NCBI GenBank assembly: GCA_945957605.1
Contig: CAMFLR010000015.1
Coordinates: 1 to 64,000 of the forward strand
Direction of reading: 5' to 3'
DNA length: 64,000 bases
Source: an uncultured Isosphaeraceae bacterium
Lineage (GTDB): Bacteria > Planctomycetota > Planctomycetia > Isosphaerales > Isosphaeraceae
The notes below the pieces were generated by a model that ran no database searches, had not been told where the DNA came from, and saw only the letters and a list, made by a program, of their open reading frames with translations. Position numbers and translations under genes: made by a program. Positions 18,430 to 33,605 of the stretch are shown here, piece after piece (the stretch's first letter is position 1; each line of letters begins with the position of its first letter).

Positions 18430-19344
18430 TTATCGCCACGGAAACTCCGGTGGTACCTTGCATCCGGTAACCTCGGGGCGAACGAGCGACCAGAAATCGC
18501 GAATCTTTGCACGGACGACGCTCGATTCGCCGCCGATGATCTTGTAGACCAAGCCAGCTTGATTCGGCAGTCGGCCGACGCCCGCAGCCCAGCCTTCGTC
18601 CGGCTTCCATGCCGAAACGGCCGTGCGGGCGATCGCGTCGGCAATGGCGGGTGGCGTGAGCAACAAAACGTTGCCGAAGACGTCGAAGTCGTTCATCACA
18701 CCAGGACGCGTCACAGCCGATTGTGCGGGCTCGACCCGAAATTTTTCGACAAATAGCGAAGTGCCGTCGGGACGTTCGGCGGCAACGGTCGAGGAAAAGA
18801 GGTCGTATTTGAAGAGTTCGCCGTCGCGATAATACTTGCGGCCACCCAACAAGGTCTCCGCGTACAAGAGCGTGGCGGTAGGGGCGATGCGTATGTGAGT
18901 TCGCGTTAGAAATCGTGAATGTGCAAAGGGAATGATTGCCTCGGGAAGGTATTCGAGATAAGCACCATCGTCGAGCGTGATTTCCTGTACTTGCGTCGCG
19001 TGATTCGCGTCCATCTCGTGAATCTTTGTCGCAGCTTGCGTTGTGACGTGCCCGCACGCGCCAGGGCCAGAGGCGATCTCGATCGTGTAACGATCGCCCT
19101 GAAGGATGCCGCCCGAATTGGTGATGACAAACACCACTGGCAGCGTCGGCATTCCTTCGTCGCAATAGAGCGATTTTTGCACGAGCAGAGGGGCGCGACG
19201 TTCCATCACCGCCAGGATCGAGCGATCTTCTCTCTTCTCGAATCGCAGGCGTAGAAACGCACACTTGCCGAACGAGCCGCTTCGTAATTGCGGCGGTTCG
19301 TCGAGATAGGGCTGGAGTTCGGGCGGCGTTATTTGATCGTTCAC
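18430..19344 (-). CDS. ureD: Urease accessory protein UreD (UreH)
   Basis: 304 residues. Contains the family's [35 protein letters not shown] segment and [15 protein letters not shown], characteristic of UreD, the scaffold that binds apo-urease and channels nickel from UreG/UreF to the active site. It is last in the urea operon and overlaps ureG by 4 bases (ATGA), so the two are translationally coupled. Cytoplasmic. Confidence 0.95.
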
Positions 19345-19979
19345 GCGCGGGCTTTCACTTCGAGGTCGAAAAGCACCATTTCACGAATCAGCTCGATCAG
19401 CCGGTCGATCCCCTCTCCTGTCTTGCAATTCGTAAAGACGAATGGCTTATCACCACGCATGAATTTTGAGTCGTCATCCATCACTTTCAAGCTTGCACCA
19501 ACATAAGGTGCGAGGTCGGTTTTGTTGATGACGAGAATGTCAGACTGCGCGATTCCCGGGCCGTTTTTGCGCGGGATTTTGTCGCCCGCAGCCACGTCGA
19601 TGACATAGATAAAGAAGTCGACAAGTGCGGGGCTGAAAGTGAGTGTAAGGTTATCACCGCCGCTTTCGATGAGCACCACATCGGTGTCTGGAAAGCGTGC
19701 TTCCATGTCTTCGACCGCCGCGAGATTCATGCTGGGGTCTTCGCGGACCGCAGTGTGAGGACATGCGCCGGTCTCGACACCTATGATCCGTTCTTCGACA
19801 AGAATTCCTTTGAGCGTGCGCTGGACGTGCTTGGCGTCTTCGGTGGTGACGACGTCGTTGGTGATGATGAGAATACGTGTTCCAATATCAAGCAGTTTGG
19901 GAGTGATCGCCTCAATGATCGCGGTTTTCCCCGAGCCGACCGGACCACCAACGCCGATCCGCGTGATTTTCTTTGCCAT
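19341..19979 (-). CDS. ureG: Urease accessory GTPase UreG
   Basis: 212 residues, a SIMIBI-class GTPase that delivers Ni2+ to urease. Visible: P-loop GPVGSGKT (residues 12-19), the nickel-binding CPH motif ([11 protein letters not shown]), the Walker B-like LIESGGDNL, and the guanine-specificity NKTDLAP. Length is usual for the family. Begins 17 bp after ureF and overlaps ureD. Confidence 0.97.
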
Positions 19980-19996
19980 CGACTATGTACCCTCGC

Positions 19997-20686
19997 TCAA
20001 TTCATGAACATGCGAACGTGTGCCCGGACGTGCAATGACGCCAGGATATCGTACACCGGTGCGAAGGCGGTCATATCCTGAAGCGTATGCTTCACGACGC
20101 GTTCGTAGGCCGCTTCGGCATCGGCATTGACTTCAAAGAGAATCGACTGAGCATCAAGATAGTGAATCTTCATCAGTCGAAGTGAGGCATTGACCATCAT
20201 CCCGGCCACGCCGTATTGATGTACGGCGAACGCATCTTGCTCCGATAGCCCCAGCGCGGTGAAGACACATGCCTGACCGATCGGCAAGCATCCCGGCGTC
20301 GTACCGGCGCGAATTCGTACGAGCCATTCGCTGACGACCGATGGTCCCAGCACGCGATCGGCCATCTCGGCTAATTTGCGGCCCATCCGCACCGTCATCG
20401 TTCGCATTTCTTCGTTGAGCTTGCGATCGAAGACGGCATGATCGGCGCGATCGATTGCCTCGGAATCGCTCGTTTGTGCGGCGCGAAAGGCAGCAAGCAC
20501 GGCTACGCCGTCGGATGTCGCCGCCTGCTCGACCGCCGTACGTACGAAGTCGCGAAGCGTCGCGACGTCGCGTACAACGCCGAGTTGCACCGCGGTTTCC
20601 AGCCCGTTCGAGAATGAGAACGCGCCAACGGGCAGCAACGAATCGCCAAACTGAAGAACGCGCATCAACTCAGCGATCGTTGCCAA
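19997..20686 (-). CDS. ureF: Urease accessory protein UreF
   Basis: 229 residues, all-helical GTPase regulator that works with UreG and UreD. Core motif LLPVGAFSFSNGLE near the N-terminus and GTTPGCLPIGQACVFTALGL in the C-terminal half are diagnostic. The open frame runs back to 21007 inside ureE, but that part has no family similarity. I choose TTG 20686, preceded by GAGGTG and keeping the family's N-terminal helix (IAELMRVLQFGDS); ATG 20665 is the alternative. The 65-base gap to ureE holds two AGTTCTT direct repeats (20707 and 20721) of unknown meaning. Confidence 0.93.
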   Translation of the reverse strand: MATIAELMRVLQFGDSLLPVGAFSFSNGLETAVQLGVVRDVATLRDFVRTAVEQAATSDGVAVLAAFRAAQTSDSEAIDRADHAVFDRKLNEEMRTMTVRMGRKLAEMADRVLGPSVVSEWLVRIRAGTTPGCLPIGQACVFTALGLSEQDAFAVHQYGVAGMMVNASLRLMKIHYLDAQSILFEVNADAEAAYERVVKHTLQDMTAFAPVYDILASLHVRAHVRMFMN

Positions 20687-20751
20687 GACAGCCCACCTCG
20701 AAAAGTAGTTCTTAGTCGTCAGTTCTTGGTTGTGAGTATTTGATGCAGGGA

Positions 20752-21318
20752 TCAGTCGGCATATCGTTGAATATGCGAATGCGGGGTGGAATCGGCTCCG
20801 CCAAAGAGACGGCGAGCTTCGTGCGGCGCGAGGTAGGGAATCACCTCGGCGCCAGGCATGAAGTCGTAAGTGATCCCCTCGAACGCATGCGTCTTCATAA
20901 CCGACGCCATCACCTTGCGATCGACAGTCAGCGGCACATAGACGGTCGTCCCCTTGACCACGGCCGGCCAGTGCTGATTGCCCAGCGCGTGGCCGAGTTC
21001 GAAGCACGTGCGAGCCAATAACTCAACAGATTTGTCGAGAAGTGCGTCGATCTTCACGACCATCACGTCGTTGAGAGTAACTCGCGCGACGATGGCCGTG
21101 CGTGTGGGTTCATCCCACACGAGAATGTCGCCGTTTTGCAGGTGCGTATTGCGCTCGAGCGCAACGGCAACTTCAACGCCCGACTCTGACCGGCGGCGGA
21201 AGCGGTTTTTCTGAGCTTGCCACTGGTCAAGGTCGAGAGGATCGATCACAGCCTCATCAAGCCGGTCTGTCCACGCTGCGTCGCCGACGTTGCCGAGCGG
21301 CTTTTCCACCAGGATCAT
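20752..21318 (-). CDS. ureE: Urease accessory nickel chaperone UreE
   Basis: 188 residues. The C-terminal domain has the metal-binding GHALGNQHWPAVV motif with the dimer-interface His. The C-terminal tail HSHIQRYAD carries only two His, so it lacks the long His-rich tail of the Klebsiella type. The N-terminal peptide-binding domain is present. Placed between ureC (30 bp) and ureF (65 bp). Confidence 0.94.
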   Translation of the reverse strand: MILVEKPLGNVGDAAWTDRLDEAVIDPLDLDQWQAQKNRFRRRSESGVEVAVALERNTHLQNGDILVWDEPTRTAIVARVTLNDVMVVKIDALLDKSVELLARTCFELGHALGNQHWPAVVKGTTVYVPLTVDRKVMASVMKTHAFEGITYDFMPGAEVIPYLAPHEARRLFGGADSTPHSHIQRYAD

Positions 21319-21348
21319 TACCGTCTCCTGTCGTCTCTCAGGCTTGCG

Positions 21349-23067
21349 TCAGCAGAAGAAGTAAAGCTGGTTGAGCGAGATCGTCTTGGGAGGCTCAACC
21401 GTCGCGTGGACGCCGTTCACTTTCACAGCGAAGGTTTGTGGATCGACGTCAATATTGGGCAAGAAGTCGTTGCGGACCATGTGGTGCTTGGTGAGAACAC
21501 GCGTGCCGAAAACCGGTTCGACGATGCGTTGAAGTTGATACTTCGACTTCACGTCGAGATCGTAAGCTGCGCGTGAGACGAACGTCACGCACGACTTCGA
21601 TAATGCCGAACCAAAGGCGCCGAACATGGGACGGTACATCATCGGCTGGGGCGTGGGGAGCGACGCGTTTGGATCGCCCATGTTGGCCCAGGCGATGAAT
21701 CCGCCCTTCAAAACCATCTTGGGTTTGGCGCCGAAGAATGCGGGTTCCCAGAGCACGAGGTCGGCCATCTTGCCTGGCTCAACTGAGCCCAGCATGTGCG
21801 AGACACCGGCTGTAATGCAGGGATTGAGGGTGACTTTTGCGAGGTATCGCAGCACGCGAAAATTGTCGTTGCCGGGAGCGTCTTCAGGAAGCGGCCCGCG
21901 TGCTTTCTTCATCGCGTCGGCTGTTTGAATCGCCCGAAGGAAATTCTCGCCGATGCGGCCCATCGCCTGCGAATCGCTGCCGATGATGGAGATCGCCCCC
22001 ATATCGTGCAACACGCTTTCGGCGACAATCGTCTCGGCCCGCACGCGGCTCTCAGCAAATGCCACGTCGGAGGGAATTCTAGGATTTAAATTATGGCAAA
22101 CCATGATCATATCAAACAGTTCGGCCACCGAATTGACGCCGCAGGGCAATGTCGGGTTGGTCGAACTGGGAAGGACGTTGGGCTGGCCGACGACTTTGAG
22201 CAAGTCGGGCGCGTGGCCGCCGCCGGCTCCTTCCGAGTGATAGGTATGAATCGTCCGGCCGTCGAACGCGGCGATCGTGTCTTCGACGAAGCCCGACTCG
22301 TTCAGCGTATCGGTATGCACTGAAACACCGACGTCGTATTCGTCCGCGACAGAGAGACATGAGCGAATGGCGGCCGGCGTGGTGCCATAATCTTCGTGAA
22401 TTTTGAAACTCGCCGCGCCGGCTCGAATTTGCTCAATCAACGGCGTAGCGGTGCTCGCGTTCCCTTTTCCGTGGAACCCGAAGTTGATCGGCAGATTTTC
22501 GACCGACCGGAGCATCATCTCCAGGTTCCAGGGGCCGTTCGTGGTCGTCACGCCGTTGCTGCCGTCGCTCGGTCCGATACCACCACCCCACAGGGTTGTC
22601 GTGCCGTTGGATAGGGCCGACCAAACCTGCTGCGGGCAAATGTAATGGACGTGGGTGTCGTGGCCGCCAGCGGTGAGAATCAGGTGCTCGCCGGTGATGG
22701 CGTCGGTGGCGGTTCCGGTCGTAAGGCCCGGCGTCACGCCATCCATCGTGCTCGGATTTCCCGCCTTGCCGATGCCAACAATCTTACCGTTGCGAATACC
22801 AACGTCAGCCTTGACGACGCCGAGGATCGGGTCGAGGATCGTCACGTTGGTGATGACCATGTCGAGACAGCCGGCTTCCTGTGTGAGCTGGTTGTCGGAG
22901 CCCATCCCGTCGCGCAGGGTTTTGCCGCCGCCGCACACCAACTCGTCGCCGTAGACCCGCAGGTCACGTTCGATTTCGACATAGAGATCGGTATCGCCAA
23001 GGCGGATCTTGTCGCCGACAGTCGGTCCGAACAGGTCCGCGTATTGCTTCCGCGAAATCTTCGACAT
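21349..23067 (-). CDS. ureC: Urease alpha subunit UreC
   Basis: 572 residues, nickel amidohydrolase that hydrolyses urea to ammonia and carbamate. By the fixed +5 offset from Klebsiella numbering, the metal site is complete: His139 and His141 (HVH), carbamylated Lys222 and His224 (FKIHED), His251, His277 and Asp365 (SDSQAMGR). The mobile flap keeps Cys324 and His325, but the usual second His is Asn326 (VCHNLNP instead of the CHH seen in the enzymes I know best). All other catalytic residues are normal, so the enzyme should be active. 18 bp after ureB. Confidence 0.97.
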
Positions 23068-23085
23068 GACGCGTCGCGCTCCTGG

Positions 23086-23583
23086 TCAGGACTCGGTCGA
23101 CTTGAACCCGCGATCTTTCGCACGCTGCACGGCCGCTTCGTAATTTGGTCGATAGTCGGGAGTCGGTCCGTCCCCCGTCCAGCCGTCGACCAAGTTGTTG
23201 AAGCCGCGGCAAAACTGCTTGCCGCCCATTGGAACGAGGGTGACCTCTTTCTCGTCACCAGGCTCGAAACGAATGGCCGTGGTCGCGGGGATATCGAGCC
23301 GCTTGCCGAACGCTTTTGCGCGATCAAAATCCAGGTAACGATTCACTTCAAAGAAGTGAAAATGCGAACCAATTTGAATTGGGCGATCACCTGTGTTGCG
23401 TACCTTCAGAGTCGTTGTAGGACGACCAACGTTGATCTCGATCTCTCCTGGTGCAACAATCACACCGCCAACCGGCACCCTTCGGACACCGGCGTGAACG
23501 TGCGGCGGAGCATCCGGGTGGCCTTTCCAGTCGCCGACACCAGGCTCTTCAGCTTTGTTTTCAGGCTCAGCCATGATGTGCAT
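23086..23583 (-). CDS. ureB: Urease beta subunit UreB, with long N- and C-terminal extensions
   Basis: 165 residues against about 100-135 in most bacterial UreB. The core is [44 protein letters not shown]...[23 protein letters not shown]. About 35 extra residues precede it and about 40 follow ([32 protein letters not shown]). The C-terminal extension is typical of longer two-domain-like UreB forms. The start could also be the Met four residues in; neither has a strong binding site. Confidence 0.95.
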
Positions 23584-23633
23584 CTCGGGTTTGGAAGAGG
23601 TGTAAAGTCGTGATGTGACGCGGCGTGTCAGCG

Positions 23634-23936
23634 CTACTTGATCGGTTCGTGGACTGTCACCAGACGGCTACCGTCGGTGAAAATCGCTTCGAGCTGGACG
23701 AAGGGAATCATCTCGGGAACGCCTTCCATTACGTCATCGCGCGTGAGGACGGTGGCTGCGTCCTTCATCACCTCTTCGACCGTTTTTCCTTCGCGTGCGC
23801 CTTCGAGAGCGGCTGCGCAAATGACTGCCATCGATTCGGGATGATTGAGCTTCAGCCCTTTCGCCTTCCGCCTAAGGGCGATGTCCGCCATTTGATGGAT
23901 GATCAGCTTTTCCAACTCTCGAGGCGTCAGGTGCAT
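23634..23936 (-). CDS. ureA: Urease gamma subunit UreA
   Basis: 100 residues, the standard length. Diagnostic opening [39 protein letters not shown] and closing [20 protein letters not shown]. Forms the trimeric (alpha-beta-gamma) urease with UreB and UreC. Placed 36 bp after the urea transporter and 50 bp before ureB. Confidence 0.97.
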
Positions 23937-23972
23937 GTCACTGACTCCAAGGGTGCAAAACTGGCGGAAGGC

Positions 23973-24872
23973 TTAGAGCTTTGAGAAGAGCCGTGCTTCG
24001 GCTTGGATGGTCGCAAGGAGGAGCCAGGTTGCGAGCACGAAGGGGGCGGTTAGTGCGGGAACACCAAGTTCCTTCGGGAAAAACTCGGTGATCAAGGTTG
24101 CGACAATCGCTGCAAGAAGTGGAAGCGTGAGACACTTGCGCTGAAGGAACAGAGCAATCGCCGCGAGTGCTCCGTTGTAGCCGTAAATGCCGATCGCGAT
24201 CGATTGCGAGGGGTCGCCGTGGTAGTCTGCAATTGCAGTGCCCACCAACGACCCGAGAAATGCCATTGCCGCATGCCAGCGGTCGCTCAAGGCGATTCCC
24301 ACCAGAAACAGAATGCCGGTGATCACATTCGCGCCGAGCATCACCTCGGCTTCGCCTCGCAGCACCTCATAAATGAAGCCGCGGGAAGTATCGGGCGAGT
24401 TGGGATGCGCAACGTCGATCCCAGTTCCCGACATCGCGTGCGCGATCGCGATGATGATCCAGGTGACGACGACAAACGGCGCCGTGTATGTGGGGAACTT
24501 CAGGAACCGTTTTGCCAAGAAGGTGATCACCGCGGCGAGGACGGAACCGGTAACCAGCAGCACCCAGGTGATCACGAAATTGGGGCTCAGAAAAAACAGT
24601 GTGCCCAGGCCGACGAGCGTCGAATTGAATCCGTAAATTCCTTGAGCGAGATCGCTGCGATTGAATGACGCCAGGTAGGCAGTAAGCGGGCCGACAATTG
24701 CACCAATGAGTGCCCCGACAAGCATGATCGGCGACGCGATCGCGATTCCGGCCAGAAAGCAAAGGCCGGTGCCGCCGTGCCCCTGAAACATGATCTGGCC
24801 GATGCCCCGAAGGACGATCAGCGTCGCACCCCGCGCAGACTCTTGGGAGATGGGCATGAGGATGCGGCTCAT
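23973..24872 (-). CDS. Urea transporter (UT/Yut family)
   Basis: 299 residues of two homologous membrane halves, each with five helices, as in bacterial UT channels. The half-signatures LAQGIYGFNSTLVGLGT (N-half) and SIAIGIYGYNGALAAIALF (C-half), the LGAN motif before helix Ta2, and repeated YTAPFVVVTW / LTAPFVLATW match the family (PF03253). It conducts urea across the inner membrane to supply the urease encoded next. First gene of the operon; a sigma-54 promoter lies about 50-60 bp upstream. Start at ATG 24872; an in-frame ATG five codons later is possible. Confidence 0.92.
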   Translation of the reverse strand: MSRILMPISQESARGATLIVLRGIGQIMFQGHGGTGLCFLAGIAIASPIMLVGALIGAIVGPLTAYLASFNRSDLAQGIYGFNSTLVGLGTLFFLSPNFVITWVLLVTGSVLAAVITFLAKRFLKFPTYTAPFVVVTWIIIAIAHAMSGTGIDVAHPNSPDTSRGFIYEVLRGEAEVMLGANVITGILFLVGIALSDRWHAAMAFLGSLVGTAIADYHGDPSQSIAIGIYGYNGALAAIALFLQRKCLTLPLLAAIVATLITEFFPKELGVPALTAPFVLATWLLLATIQAEARLFSKL

Positions 24873-30512: not shown

Positions 30513-32093
30513 ATGTCTACGAACGCGACACTAGTCCTCGATCGCGGCCCCGGGAAGCTTCGGCTTTACCTTGGCGGCGACCTGCAGTTCGACACCGATG
30601 ACGAAGCGATCTATCACGATCGTCTCGCCCATCCCGCCCTGCTCGCCGCACGAGCAAGGTTTGGGGATCGCCTTAACCTGCTCGTGATTGGCGGCGGCGA
30701 TGGCCTGCTCGTCCGCGAGCTACTCCGGCATGAAGGAGTCGCGTCGATCCGCGTGATCGACTTTAATCCCGACGTTCTGGCGCTTGCGAGAACCGAACTC
30801 GCCGCCTGGAACGAGTCGAGCCTCGCCGACGAACGCGTTGTTGTCGAGGTCGCCGACGTCCGCGAGGCGCTCCCGGCCGCCGGCTCGTTCCATGTGATCT
30901 TCTCGGATTTGACCTGTCCCGCCACGCTGGCCGATTGCGGTCTGTTCACGCGTGACTGGTTCCAAAAGCTCCGCGAGCACCTGGAGCCCGAAGGCATTCT
31001 TGCCATAAACGGGCTCTCTCCGGATCAAACTCCAGCAGCGTACTGGTGCCTTTACCAGACGCTCCGTTCGGCCGGACTCGCCACACTGCCGGGCCGGTCG
31101 CGCGTTCCCAGCTTCGCGGAGTTGGGATATGGCGAGTGGGGCTTCTTCCTCGGCTCGGAACGTGCCATCACACCGGCTGAGATTCGCTCGATACCCATCC
31201 CCCAGGGCGTGCGAACTCTTGACGACGCCGGGCTGGTGGACTGCTTCGAGTTCTCCCGGCAACAGGCCGACTTGCGGACGACGATCCTGCCCGCGTCTGA
31301 CGCAGGGCGGACGCTTTATGAGTATCTCCTCGAAGCGACTGCGATCAAGCCGGGTGAGTCCGGCGAGACGATCTGCTTCCTGGGGTTCGACGACCCGGTT
31401 GCGCCGCTTGAACCGGCCGCGGCGACAGTCCCGAGCCTGAGGCTGAAAGGGTGGCTCGATCGCCAGCCTGGTACAGGAATCGACGACCTCTTGATGTGCG
31501 TGCCGTTGGGTCACCGGATCGTCACCCGCGACCTGGTCAAGGAGTGGGCGCACCACCTGTTCCAGGTCACAAGCAAGCTCGATCTCAGGCGGTTGGTCTC
31601 TGCACTGCTCCACCGCGCCACGGCCTTGCCTCGCCGTCTGATCGCCGAGCTGAAGCAGTTCCGCGTGTTCCTTTCGCGCGGTGAAGATCCCATGGCAAGC
31701 ACCACAACCTGGGGCTGGCGATTTTTTAGCGTGCTGATGCTTGTAATCGTCCTCGCGCAGACGGCGATGCCCACGGCTGTCTATGCCAAAGGGTTCTCTG
31801 GCGGCGGTACCTCTCACGCGGGAGGAGGAACGCATGTAGGGGAAGGAACCCATGTCGGAGGCACCGTGCATTCGCCAGGCACGACCTATACGCATCCGGG
31901 CGGTGGACATCCAATGCCAAGGCCAGGAGGCCCGCCGATGCGACAGCATAGCGGGTACGTGTCGGGAGGCTCGGGCGGGTACGTGTCGGGAGGACTGAAC
32001 ATCCCGTACACCTATTACTCCTCCGACTCCTACTACAACTACTACTACCGCTACGAAAACGGGCAATACGTCTACTACTGCTCGCCCCGCTAA
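30513..32093 (+). CDS. Spermidine synthase homologue fused to a membrane/signal segment and Gly/His/Tyr-rich tail
   Basis: 526 residues. Residues 1-260 are an aminopropyltransferase (SpeE-like) domain: YHDRLAHPALL, SAM-type GGGDG loop (60-64), VIDFNPD, and SDLTCPA holding the catalytic-position Asp132. The usual second Asp of the DSTDP-type motif is Cys135. Residues 265-393 are of unknown fold. At Met394 a signal-peptide-like stretch begins (WRFFSVLMLVIVLAQTAMPTAVYA), followed by a low-complexity tail of about 105 residues with GGGTHVG, GYVSGG repeats and YYNYYYRYENGQYVYYC. Ribosome binding site GGAGGGACGAG precedes the ATG. The gene leads a cassette with a FemAB transferase and SpeD. Substrate specificity and whether the tail is made separately are open. 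Confidence 0.75.
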   Translation: MSTNATLVLDRGPGKLRLYLGGDLQFDTDDEAIYHDRLAHPALLAARARFGDRLNLLVIGGGDGLLVRELLRHEGVASIRVIDFNPDVLALARTELAAWNESSLADERVVVEVADVREALPAAGSFHVIFSDLTCPATLADCGLFTRDWFQKLREHLEPEGILAINGLSPDQTPAAYWCLYQTLRSAGLATLPGRSRVPSFAELGYGEWGFFLGSERAITPAEIRSIPIPQGVRTLDDAGLVDCFEFSRQQADLRTTILPASDAGRTLYEYLLEATAIKPGESGETICFLGFDDPVAPLEPAAATVPSLRLKGWLDRQPGTGIDDLLMCVPLGHRIVTRDLVKEWAHHLFQVTSKLDLRRLVSALLHRATALPRRLIAELKQFRVFLSRGEDPMASTTTWGWRFFSVLMLVIVLAQTAMPTAVYAKGFSGGGTSHAGGGTHVGEGTHVGGTVHSPGTTYTHPGGGHPMPRPGGPPMRQHSGYVSGGSGGYVSGGLNIPYTYYSSDSYYNYYYRYENGQYVYYCSPR

Positions 32094-32106
32094 GGAGTGA
32101 TAAGTC

Positions 32107-33165
32107 ATGATCGCCCCGCTCCAACTCACCGAGTTCAGTGATAAGTATCGTGATGCCTGGGAGTCGGCAGTGCGTGAGAATCCCGCATGCGGGTTCATGC
32201 AATCGCTGACCTGGGCGGAGTTGCAGTCGCGCCAGGAGGTCGAGGTCTATCCGCGGCTCTGGCTTCGCGACGGCCAGATTGAGGGCGGGGCGATCTTTCA
32301 GGCTGCCCGCTCGCTCGACGGGCCGGGCATCCTGATCACGCCAGGGGGACCGCTCGTCCCCTGGCACGACCCGCAACGCGCCGCTGTACTCTTTGCCGCG
32401 ATTCGCCGCGAGGCGCGCCAACTGCTTCGACGGACCGGCAGCATCCTCTGGCGGATCGAGCCACGTCTCGCTCCTCCGCTTCCGCCTTACCTGCGTGGGT
32501 TCGTCCGCGCCCCCGTCGACTTCGACCCATTCGAGACCAATGAGATCGATCTTTCAGGTGGCATGGCCGATGTCCTCGGACGGATGACGTCAAAGGGCCG
32601 TTACAACGTTGGACTGGCTAAGCGGCACGGCGTCGAAGTTGAAGTGACGACCGACCCGGCCTCCGCCGCGCGGTTTCATCCGCTGCTTGCCGAGACCGCT
32701 GCACGTCAGGGCTTTGCCGCGGAACCGCTCTGCTACCTGATGGATCTGGCGGCAACTCTTTTCCCCGCGAGGATGGCTGCGGCGTTCTTCGCGACGTACC
32801 AAGGCGAAACGGTCGCCGGTGCCATTGCGATTTTTTTCGGCCCACGCGCCACGTACTTGTACGGTGGCAGCCGCCGGGAACACCGCGACGTGATGGCTCC
32901 GTACGCCGTTCAGGCCGCCATCATGGCCTCGGCAATTGAACGCGGTTGTGACACCTACGACCTTTACGGGATCGATGCTCAGGGCGACCGTGCCGACCAT
33001 GCGTATCGCCAGTTCTCGCAATTCAAGCGTCGATTCGGAGGCGTGAATCGCGTCTACGCGGGTGCAAACGACCTCTACAACTACGATCAGATCGCCGATG
33101 CGATGCTCCCCTTCCTGCAGCATCTGGGAGTCGAGGAAACACCTGCCAGTGGACTCACTCCGTGA
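32107..33165 (+). CDS. FemAB/FemX-like peptidyltransferase (GNAT fold)
   Basis: 352 residues with the double GNAT-like fold of FemABX: first half through PRLWLRDGQIEGG and FQAARSLDGPGILITPGGPL, second half with KGRYNVGLAKRHGVEVEV, YLYGGSRREHRDVMAPYAVQ, CDTYDLYGIDA and HAYRQFSQFKRRFGG. Family members add amino acids from aminoacyl-tRNA to peptidoglycan peptides or acylate other amines. It lies 13 bp after the SpeE fusion and 83 bp before speD, with GGAG ahead of its ATG. In this context it may join a polyamine or amino acid to a peptide; that is inference. Confidence 0.85.
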   Translation: MIAPLQLTEFSDKYRDAWESAVRENPACGFMQSLTWAELQSRQEVEVYPRLWLRDGQIEGGAIFQAARSLDGPGILITPGGPLVPWHDPQRAAVLFAAIRREARQLLRRTGSILWRIEPRLAPPLPPYLRGFVRAPVDFDPFETNEIDLSGGMADVLGRMTSKGRYNVGLAKRHGVEVEVTTDPASAARFHPLLAETAARQGFAAEPLCYLMDLAATLFPARMAAAFFATYQGETVAGAIAIFFGPRATYLYGGSRREHRDVMAPYAVQAAIMASAIERGCDTYDLYGIDAQGDRADHAYRQFSQFKRRFGGVNRVYAGANDLYNYDQIADAMLPFLQHLGVEETPASGLTP

Positions 33166-33248
33166 TCCTGCGAATGAGTTTCATTGCCGCAGGGGTAAAT
33201 GACGTCTGAAACAATCCTGGCTGGAAAGAAGAAAGGTCTGAATCTCCC

Positions 33249-33605
33249 ATGATCGGTCAACACTTACTTGCCGACCTCTATGAGGTAGCGTCCGAGCTTC
33301 TGGTCGATGACGGCTTGCTTGCGGAGTGCCTCGACGAGGCTGCGCGTCGAGGGGGGATGCACGCGATCGGCGCTCCGGTGCTGCACCGCTTTGAAGGGGG
33401 TGGCCTCACAGGCTATCTCCTCCTTTCGGAGTCTCATATTGCATTCCATACATATCCCGAATATCAATACATCGCCCTCGATGTTTTTTCATGCGGCCAA
33501 GCCGATTCGAGGGCCGCGCTCTCGGTTTTCGTCACAGCTCTTGAACCCGGCCGAGAACGAATAACGAGAGCGCCCCGTGGCACCGAGATCCCGCACCGCG
33601 ATTGA
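33249..33605 (+). CDS. speD: S-adenosylmethionine decarboxylase proenzyme (prokaryotic class 1B)
   Basis: 118 residues. Motif LLLSESHIAFHTYPE: the chain is self-cleaved between Glu61 and Ser62 to make the pyruvoyl group on Ser62. His67 and Cys82 (DVFSCG) match the processing and proton-donor residues of the Thermotoga enzyme shifted by one. Makes decarboxylated SAM, the aminopropyl donor for a SpeE-type enzyme, which is encoded two genes upstream. Third gene of the cassette; AAAGG precedes the ATG. Confidence 0.93.
   Translation: MIGQHLLADLYEVASELLVDDGLLAECLDEAARRGGMHAIGAPVLHRFEGGGLTGYLLLSESHIAFHTYPEYQYIALDVFSCGQADSRAALSVFVTALEPGRERITRAPRGTEIPHRD

Follow-up and report, generated by a model that had tools for sequence, protein, structure and literature searches.

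A planctomycete cassette of SpeE-like fusion, FemAB-type and SpeD genes as a possible derived relative of 7TM-SpeE envelope clusters

The three genes and their products

The stretch analysed here (the window) comprises the first 64,000 nucleotides of contig CAMFLR010000015.1, from the assembly of an uncultured Isosphaeraceae bacterium, a planctomycete genome of 8.8 Mb in 33 contigs. Near its middle lie three closely spaced plus-strand genes (Table 1), which encode a SpeE-like fusion protein that we call P1, a FemAB-type transferase and the S-adenosylmethionine (AdoMet) decarboxylase SpeD. An earlier sequence-only reading had described this layout, and its coordinates hold, with gaps of 13 bp between P1 and FemAB and 83 bp between FemAB and SpeD. 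The domains that it named were likewise recovered by Pfam searches: Spermine_synth (PF01564; 67 bits, residues 31-203 of P1), FemAB (PF02388; 102 bits against a cut-off of 24, with a GNAT-type Acetyltransf_6 match of 52 bits) and AdoMet_dc (105 bits). All three frames are intact, with a codon-position G+C content (GC) resembling that of the neighbouring genes. The short gap and the strong Shine-Dalgarno sequence immediately after P1 suggest that FemAB shares its transcript, and the two are probably co-expressed. The arrangement is far beyond chance, though it was found in a single genome.

Table 1. Features of the cassette, in window coordinates
Feature	Position	Strand	Basis or remark
Open reading frame (ORF) P1, 526 amino acids (aa)	30513..32093	+	SpeE-like domain, linker, signal/transmembrane (TM) segment and exported Gly/His/Tyr-rich tail
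SpeE-like aminopropyltransferase domain, residues 1-250	30513..31262	+	PF01564, alignment, tree, AlphaFold2
Orphan linker, residues 251-393	31263..31691	+	Low model confidence, then helices 339-388
Possible internal start	31680..31694	+	GGTGA 7 nt before in-frame ATG (M394, nt 31692)
Signal-peptide/TM-like segment MASTTTWGWRFFSVLMLVIVLAQTAMPTAVYA, residues 394-425	31692..31787	+	Sequence; helix 399-417 in AlphaFold2 model
Exported Gly/His/Tyr-rich tail, residues 426-526	31788..32090	+	Sequence; end ..YYCSPR
FemAB-type (FemX-like, GNAT-fold) transferase, 352 aa	32107..33165	+	Good Shine-Dalgarno: AAGGAGTGATAAG
SpeD, class 1b AdoMet decarboxylase, 118 aa	33249..33605	+	Pfam, NCBIfam, active-site residues

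SpeD scores above the NCBIfam cut-off of TIGR03330 (101.7 against 75.7 bits), and its processing serine, catalytic histidine and cysteine (S62, H67 and C82) align with S63, H68 and C83 of the T. maritima enzyme, so that the complete active site claimed from the sequence alone is indeed there. It also keeps the proline (P70, assigned by eye) of the HTYPEY stretch, a residue that separates true AdoMet decarboxylases from arginine-decarboxylating SpeD homologs (PMC10407285). This proline, together with the TIGR03330 score, disfavours an arginine or ornithine decarboxylase. By its sequence the protein is an intact class 1b SpeD, with a predicted AdoMet decarboxylase activity. The genome encodes no other SpeD; a 55% relative was found in one planctomycete genome, where no SpeE lies beside it.

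In an AlphaFold2 model built from 37 sequences, the aminopropyltransferase fold of the first 250 residues of P1 is confidently predicted (predicted local distance difference test score mostly above 90), and the best matches in the PDB are polyamine aminopropyltransferases, with 1uir on top (E 4e-18). When we aligned the domain with its homologs, we found Q25, Y34, H35, D63, D83, D115 and D132 kept, among them all the positions on the side of decarboxylated AdoMet, dcAdoMet (Q25, D63, D83, D115 and D132). The acceptor side is altered by three substitutions, D135C, Q166N and Y194G, at positions that we take, from the human and bacterial enzymes, to face the diamine. Q166N occurs in no other aligned homolog and Y194G is rare among them. 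DxxCP replaces the DxxDP catalytic motif in ordinary SpeD-SpeE pairs of several planctomycete families (L055-L077), and we therefore rejected the idea that D135C inactivates the enzyme.

P1 reaches none of the NCBIfam spermidine-synthase equivalog cut-offs (84.8 against 249.6 bits for the curated speE model), and its best profile, PRK03612, is matched over the C-terminal half of the profile only. In a FastTree phylogeny, the domain joins, on a long branch and with a support of 0.923, the SpeE group of the seven-transmembrane (7TM) type. Its relatives are the C-terminal halves of proteins of about 500 aa that carry a 7TM-like N-terminal half; this half is missing in P1, which begins directly at the SpeE domain. 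An ordinary spermidine synthase, the outcome that the sequence-only reading had named as damaging to its proposal, is thus not what the tree indicates, since the domain branches with envelope-linked SpeE proteins and not with the classic ones. Homologs sharing a PGR..VPSF stretch (L161, L162) turned out to belong to plain SpeD-SpeE pairs.

The signal-peptide-like segment and exported tail proposed earlier are present in residues 394-526. In the AlphaFold2 model the tail is mostly disordered, with a hairpin at its end (508-525). The in-frame ATG at M394, which had escaped the earlier reading, is preceded by a Shine-Dalgarno-like GGTGA. The sequence is thus compatible with a tail that stays attached to P1, with one that is secreted as a protein of its own, or with both products side by side. 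No homologs of the linker and tail were found in 392 planctomycete genomes. The strand opposite P1 carries a 492-aa open frame (30720-32198, minus), probably an artefact of high GC.

These features can also be read as ordinary polyamine synthesis: the product of SpeD and SpeE would be spermidine or some other free polyamine, for instance N1-aminopropylagmatine, while the tail would be secreted as a protein of its own and FemAB would be a bystander without relation to either. The internal start would fit this, as would the fact that the cassette holds the sole SpeD and the sole compact SpeE of its genome (the other PF01564 match is a 900-aa membrane protein); catalytic D132 and every dcAdoMet-side residue are kept, and DxxCP has its precedent in classic pairs. 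However, the branching with the 7TM type, the unique Q166N and rare Y194G, and the wide miss of the equivalog cut-off all argue against it, and we consider this explanation rather unlikely.

The FemAB-type gene and the distribution of the set

The FemAB-type protein, the only one of its genome, matches the Weissella viridescens FemX structures (1ne9/3gkr) with an E value of 1e-11 over part of its length only, and its match to TIGR03019 is weak, as is that to FemX. The earlier reading had noted that a grouping with standard cell-wall ligases next to murein genes would count against it. We found instead a FemAB-type equivalog score far under the cut-off (62 against 500 bits) and no murein genes among the scanned neighbours, which are urease genes, a porin, an oxidoreductase and a kinase. 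The position that we presume corresponds to FemX Arg211 reads Glu. By sequence it is a FemAB-type transferase, with aminoacyl-tRNA-dependent transfer as its putative activity. One weak match was obtained across the 392 planctomycete genomes, and a genome-collection scan, which required exact short peptides and to which moderately diverged orthologs are invisible, returned distant Patescibacteria FemABs only. Plasmid relatives share at most 40% identity over half the length, in unrelated contexts where these could be read. In one of them, on Methylobacterium nodulans pMNOD02 (L094:5016-8597; 40% over 172 aa), the relative directly follows a peptidase-domain ABC transporter and an HlyD adaptor, a setting suggestive of a peptide export locus.

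FemAB could stand here by chance, as an ordinary aminoacyl transferase of the cell-wall or small-molecule kind, the SpeE-tail fusion and SpeD acting without it. We give this almost even odds: FemAB was absent from all the SpeE/SpeD clusters examined, the matches to FemX and TIGR03019 are weak, and the distant Methylobacterium relative sits beside a peptidase-type transporter. On the other side stand the 13-bp gap and strong Shine-Dalgarno that suggest one transcript, the lack of murein genes among the scanned neighbours and the status of the gene as the only FemAB of its genome. A bystander FemAB would be compatible with the interpretation that we favour below, minus its FemAB step.

The search for P1 covered about 720 distinct planctomycete genomes, drawn from sets of 45 (order), 392 (phylum) and 373 (class), and gave no ortholog of the fusion; the SpeE domain alone found matches, of at most 40% identity. 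Sampling beyond the Planctomycetota consisted of plasmid records and one pattern scan, and no relative of the cassette was found in viral contigs. A conserved three-gene system is thus rejected for the genomes sampled: among these, the set occurs in the window genome only, and a lack of joint conservation was one of the outcomes that the sequence-only reading had named as refuting it. Such a singleton distribution, along with the orphan linker and tail and the acceptor-site changes, is what a decaying or recently acquired remnant devoid of working function would present. Nevertheless, three intact frames (FemAB being open over 352 aa), a complete SpeD active site and a codon-position GC similar to that of the neighbours make a remnant improbable.

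Upstream of the cassette lie the urease genes ureD, ureG, ureF and ureC with a urea transporter (18430-24872, minus). Elsewhere in the genome, contig C6 (L092:5814-9984) carries a His-Xaa-Ser system, with an HxsA-like repeat protein, an HxsD-like protein and two radical SAM proteins, all named from sequence and not by profile search; after them comes a DUF350 protein of 69 aa.

The Lys-ended partner of 7TM-SpeE genes and a possible tail acceptor

In planctomycetes, the 7TM-SpeE genes cluster with genes for SpeD, DUF4178, DUF350 and a flavin amine oxidase, in the order SpeD-DUF4178-X-DUF350-7TM::SpeE, from which FemAB is absent. A 7TM-SpeE fusion is reportedly unable to replace spermidine synthase. 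Operons of this cluster type have been described near PspA systems, with the suggestion that polyamine levels or the aminopropylation of other substrates are monitored there (Ravi et al. 2024, PMC11237479, which cites Li et al. 2019, Biochem J 476:2579, on the latter); a non-putrescine substrate has been proposed for the 7TM-fused family. We found that X, whose gene lies between those for DUF4178 and DUF350, is a small Gly-rich protein, either anchored in the membrane or secreted, with Gly-Lys as its last two residues. Elsewhere the Gly-Lys tail belongs to a lipoprotein of about 230 aa or, in two clusters, follows a TM segment at the C-terminal end of the DUF4178 protein (L023, 2-475; L099, 1-909).

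A Gly-Lys-ended X was present in 32 planctomycete genomes of the discovery set, and outside the phylum the same end was found in Gemmatirosa, Ensifer and an Alteromonas lipoprotein; other lysine ends are Val-Lys in Tritonibacter and His-Lys in two Novosphingobium and a Burkholderia. When clusters from genomes unused before were examined (solitary SpeE genes, contig edges and classic SpeE being excluded by hand), 23 of the 24 readable ones showed the Gly-Lys end. The exception, in genome G602 (L142:2182-2580), is a lipoprotein ending GVAGSS in a SpeD/DUF350/7TM-SpeE cluster, and it is the only readable cluster of all (L022-L045, L080-L086, L095, L098-L119, L122, L123, L126-L160) to lack a terminal lysine. 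In an automatic blind scan of the 1 kb upstream, 50 of 73 7TM-type loci, some of which are repeat views of one genome, contained a Gly-Lys-ended exported frame. The opposite strand of the 73 loci yielded no such frame, and 1460 shuffled sequences yielded two. Two more came from the 34 other SpeE loci, but these two were recognised as 7TM-type loci with low scores. Nine X proteins were compared with Pfam and seven with NCBIfam, none matching a model above its cut-off, and in the literature examined we found neither a description of the Gly-Lys hallmark nor an identified aminopropyl acceptor for SpeD/7TM-SpeE clusters. A lipoprotein with a Ctha_1186 domain is mentioned in such operons (PMC11237479), and X may be a protein of this kind. 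The near-invariant Gly-Lys (or Lys) end makes this partner a specific and testable candidate acceptor for 7TM-SpeE, in clusters that are spread over several phyla, and it is a more general and more important result than the window cassette itself.

We favour, with a probability of roughly 40%, the view that the cassette derives from the SpeD/DUF350/7TM-SpeE envelope system, as a variant found in one genome in which the tail has been fused to the enzyme. SpeD would produce dcAdoMet, and the SpeE-like domain, lacking the 7TM half and altered in its acceptor pocket, would move the aminopropyl group to an exported polypeptide tail and not to putrescine, this tail being either the enzyme's own C-terminus or the product of the internal start. 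More speculatively, FemAB might then form an amide bond that adds an aminoacyl residue either to the tail or to the aminopropyl amine. An exported tail as acceptor is reasonable because the domain belongs to an envelope-linked SpeE branch, whose members in related genomes lie beside the exported, Gly-Lys-ended X, and the two DUF4178 fusions provide a precedent for a tail joined through a TM segment. The retention of the dcAdoMet-side residues together with the changes on the acceptor side also speaks for this view.

Several observations weigh against this view. The tail of P1 ends in Arg (..CSPR), so that the Gly-Lys hallmark is absent, and a search for a small membrane-anchored, Lys-ended ORF between 28000 and 37000 found none, which led us to reject an overlooked separate partner beside the cassette. 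D135C alone is no mark of a new substrate, since ordinary planctomycete SpeE proteins adjoining SpeD read DxxCP as well. DUF4178 is found nowhere in the window genome and the sole DUF350 match lies on another contig, in the His-Xaa-Ser locus, so that remaining parts of a 7TM-SpeE system elsewhere in the genome were likewise rejected. No relatives of the window FemAB were found in the related SpeE/SpeD clusters examined, there is no conserved co-occurrence with FemAB, and we found no sequence feature connecting it with either the tail or a polyamine; the linker and tail, finally, are orphans. Of the earlier proposal that an aminopropylated compound is attached to the exported tail or to a wall peptide, the tail is partly supported as acceptor, and more plausible now than from the window alone, through the SpeE branch and the Gly-Lys-ended X of relatives; the link to FemAB found no such support, and the window tail does not have the Gly-Lys end.

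Comparison with known systems

With the FemX/FemAB peptidyl transferases (1ne9, 3gkr, 6snr), the window FemAB shares the fold family, the C-terminal GNAT domain and, by eye, an FK motif; its partial-length matches and its equivalog score set it apart from them. The canonical spermidine and thermospermine synthases (1uir, 6bq2, 7xif) have in common with P1 the fold and the dcAdoMet-side residues, whereas in P1 the acceptor-side D, Q and Y have become C, N and G and a long C-terminal extension bears the exported tail.

In Escherichia coli K-12, the DUF1190 proteins YjfM and YgiB (L121:7388-8026, L125:1745-2416) are encoded directly upstream of YjfC and YgiC and end in Gly-Gly. The RefSeq names of YjfC and YgiC are peptide-spermidine ligases, an activity attributed to Pederick et al. 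2023 as cited in PMC12270671. The yjfL-yjfM-yjfC and ygiB-ygiC sets resemble the clusters discussed here in placing an exported or anchored Gly-rich protein beside a polyamine-handling enzyme, with DUF350 in the yjf set, but they use a ligase, their protein ends in Gly-Gly, and SpeE and SpeD are absent from the set. A C-terminal Gly joined to spermidine and a C-terminal Lys aminopropylated on its side chain would be chemically similar ends. It is conceivable, though on balance doubtful, that a widespread pathway aminopropylates the C-terminal Lys of exported Gly-rich proteins to N6-(3-aminopropyl)lysine, giving a spermidine-like end that parallels the E. coli Gly-Gly ligase route, and that the window holds a compact enzyme-tail variant of it in which FemAB takes part. 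If so, this would be a new protein modification, linking polyamine chemistry to envelope stress systems, and the window would show in addition that enzyme and tail can form a single protein.

The closest likeness is to the clusters of SpeD, the 7TM(MFS)-SpeE fusion, DUF350 and DUF4178, with which the window shares the SpeE clade, a SpeD within the set and an exported Gly-rich tail tied to the enzyme. It differs in having no 7TM half, DUF350, DUF4178 or amine oxidase, in a tail that is fused to SpeE and ends in Arg instead of Gly-Lys, and in the added FemAB. Since the 7TM half, DUF350/DUF4178 and the Lys end are all missing, the cassette falls outside the 7TM-SpeE/DUF350 systems proper, and the most fitting description is that of a derived relative with a possibly similar mode of action.

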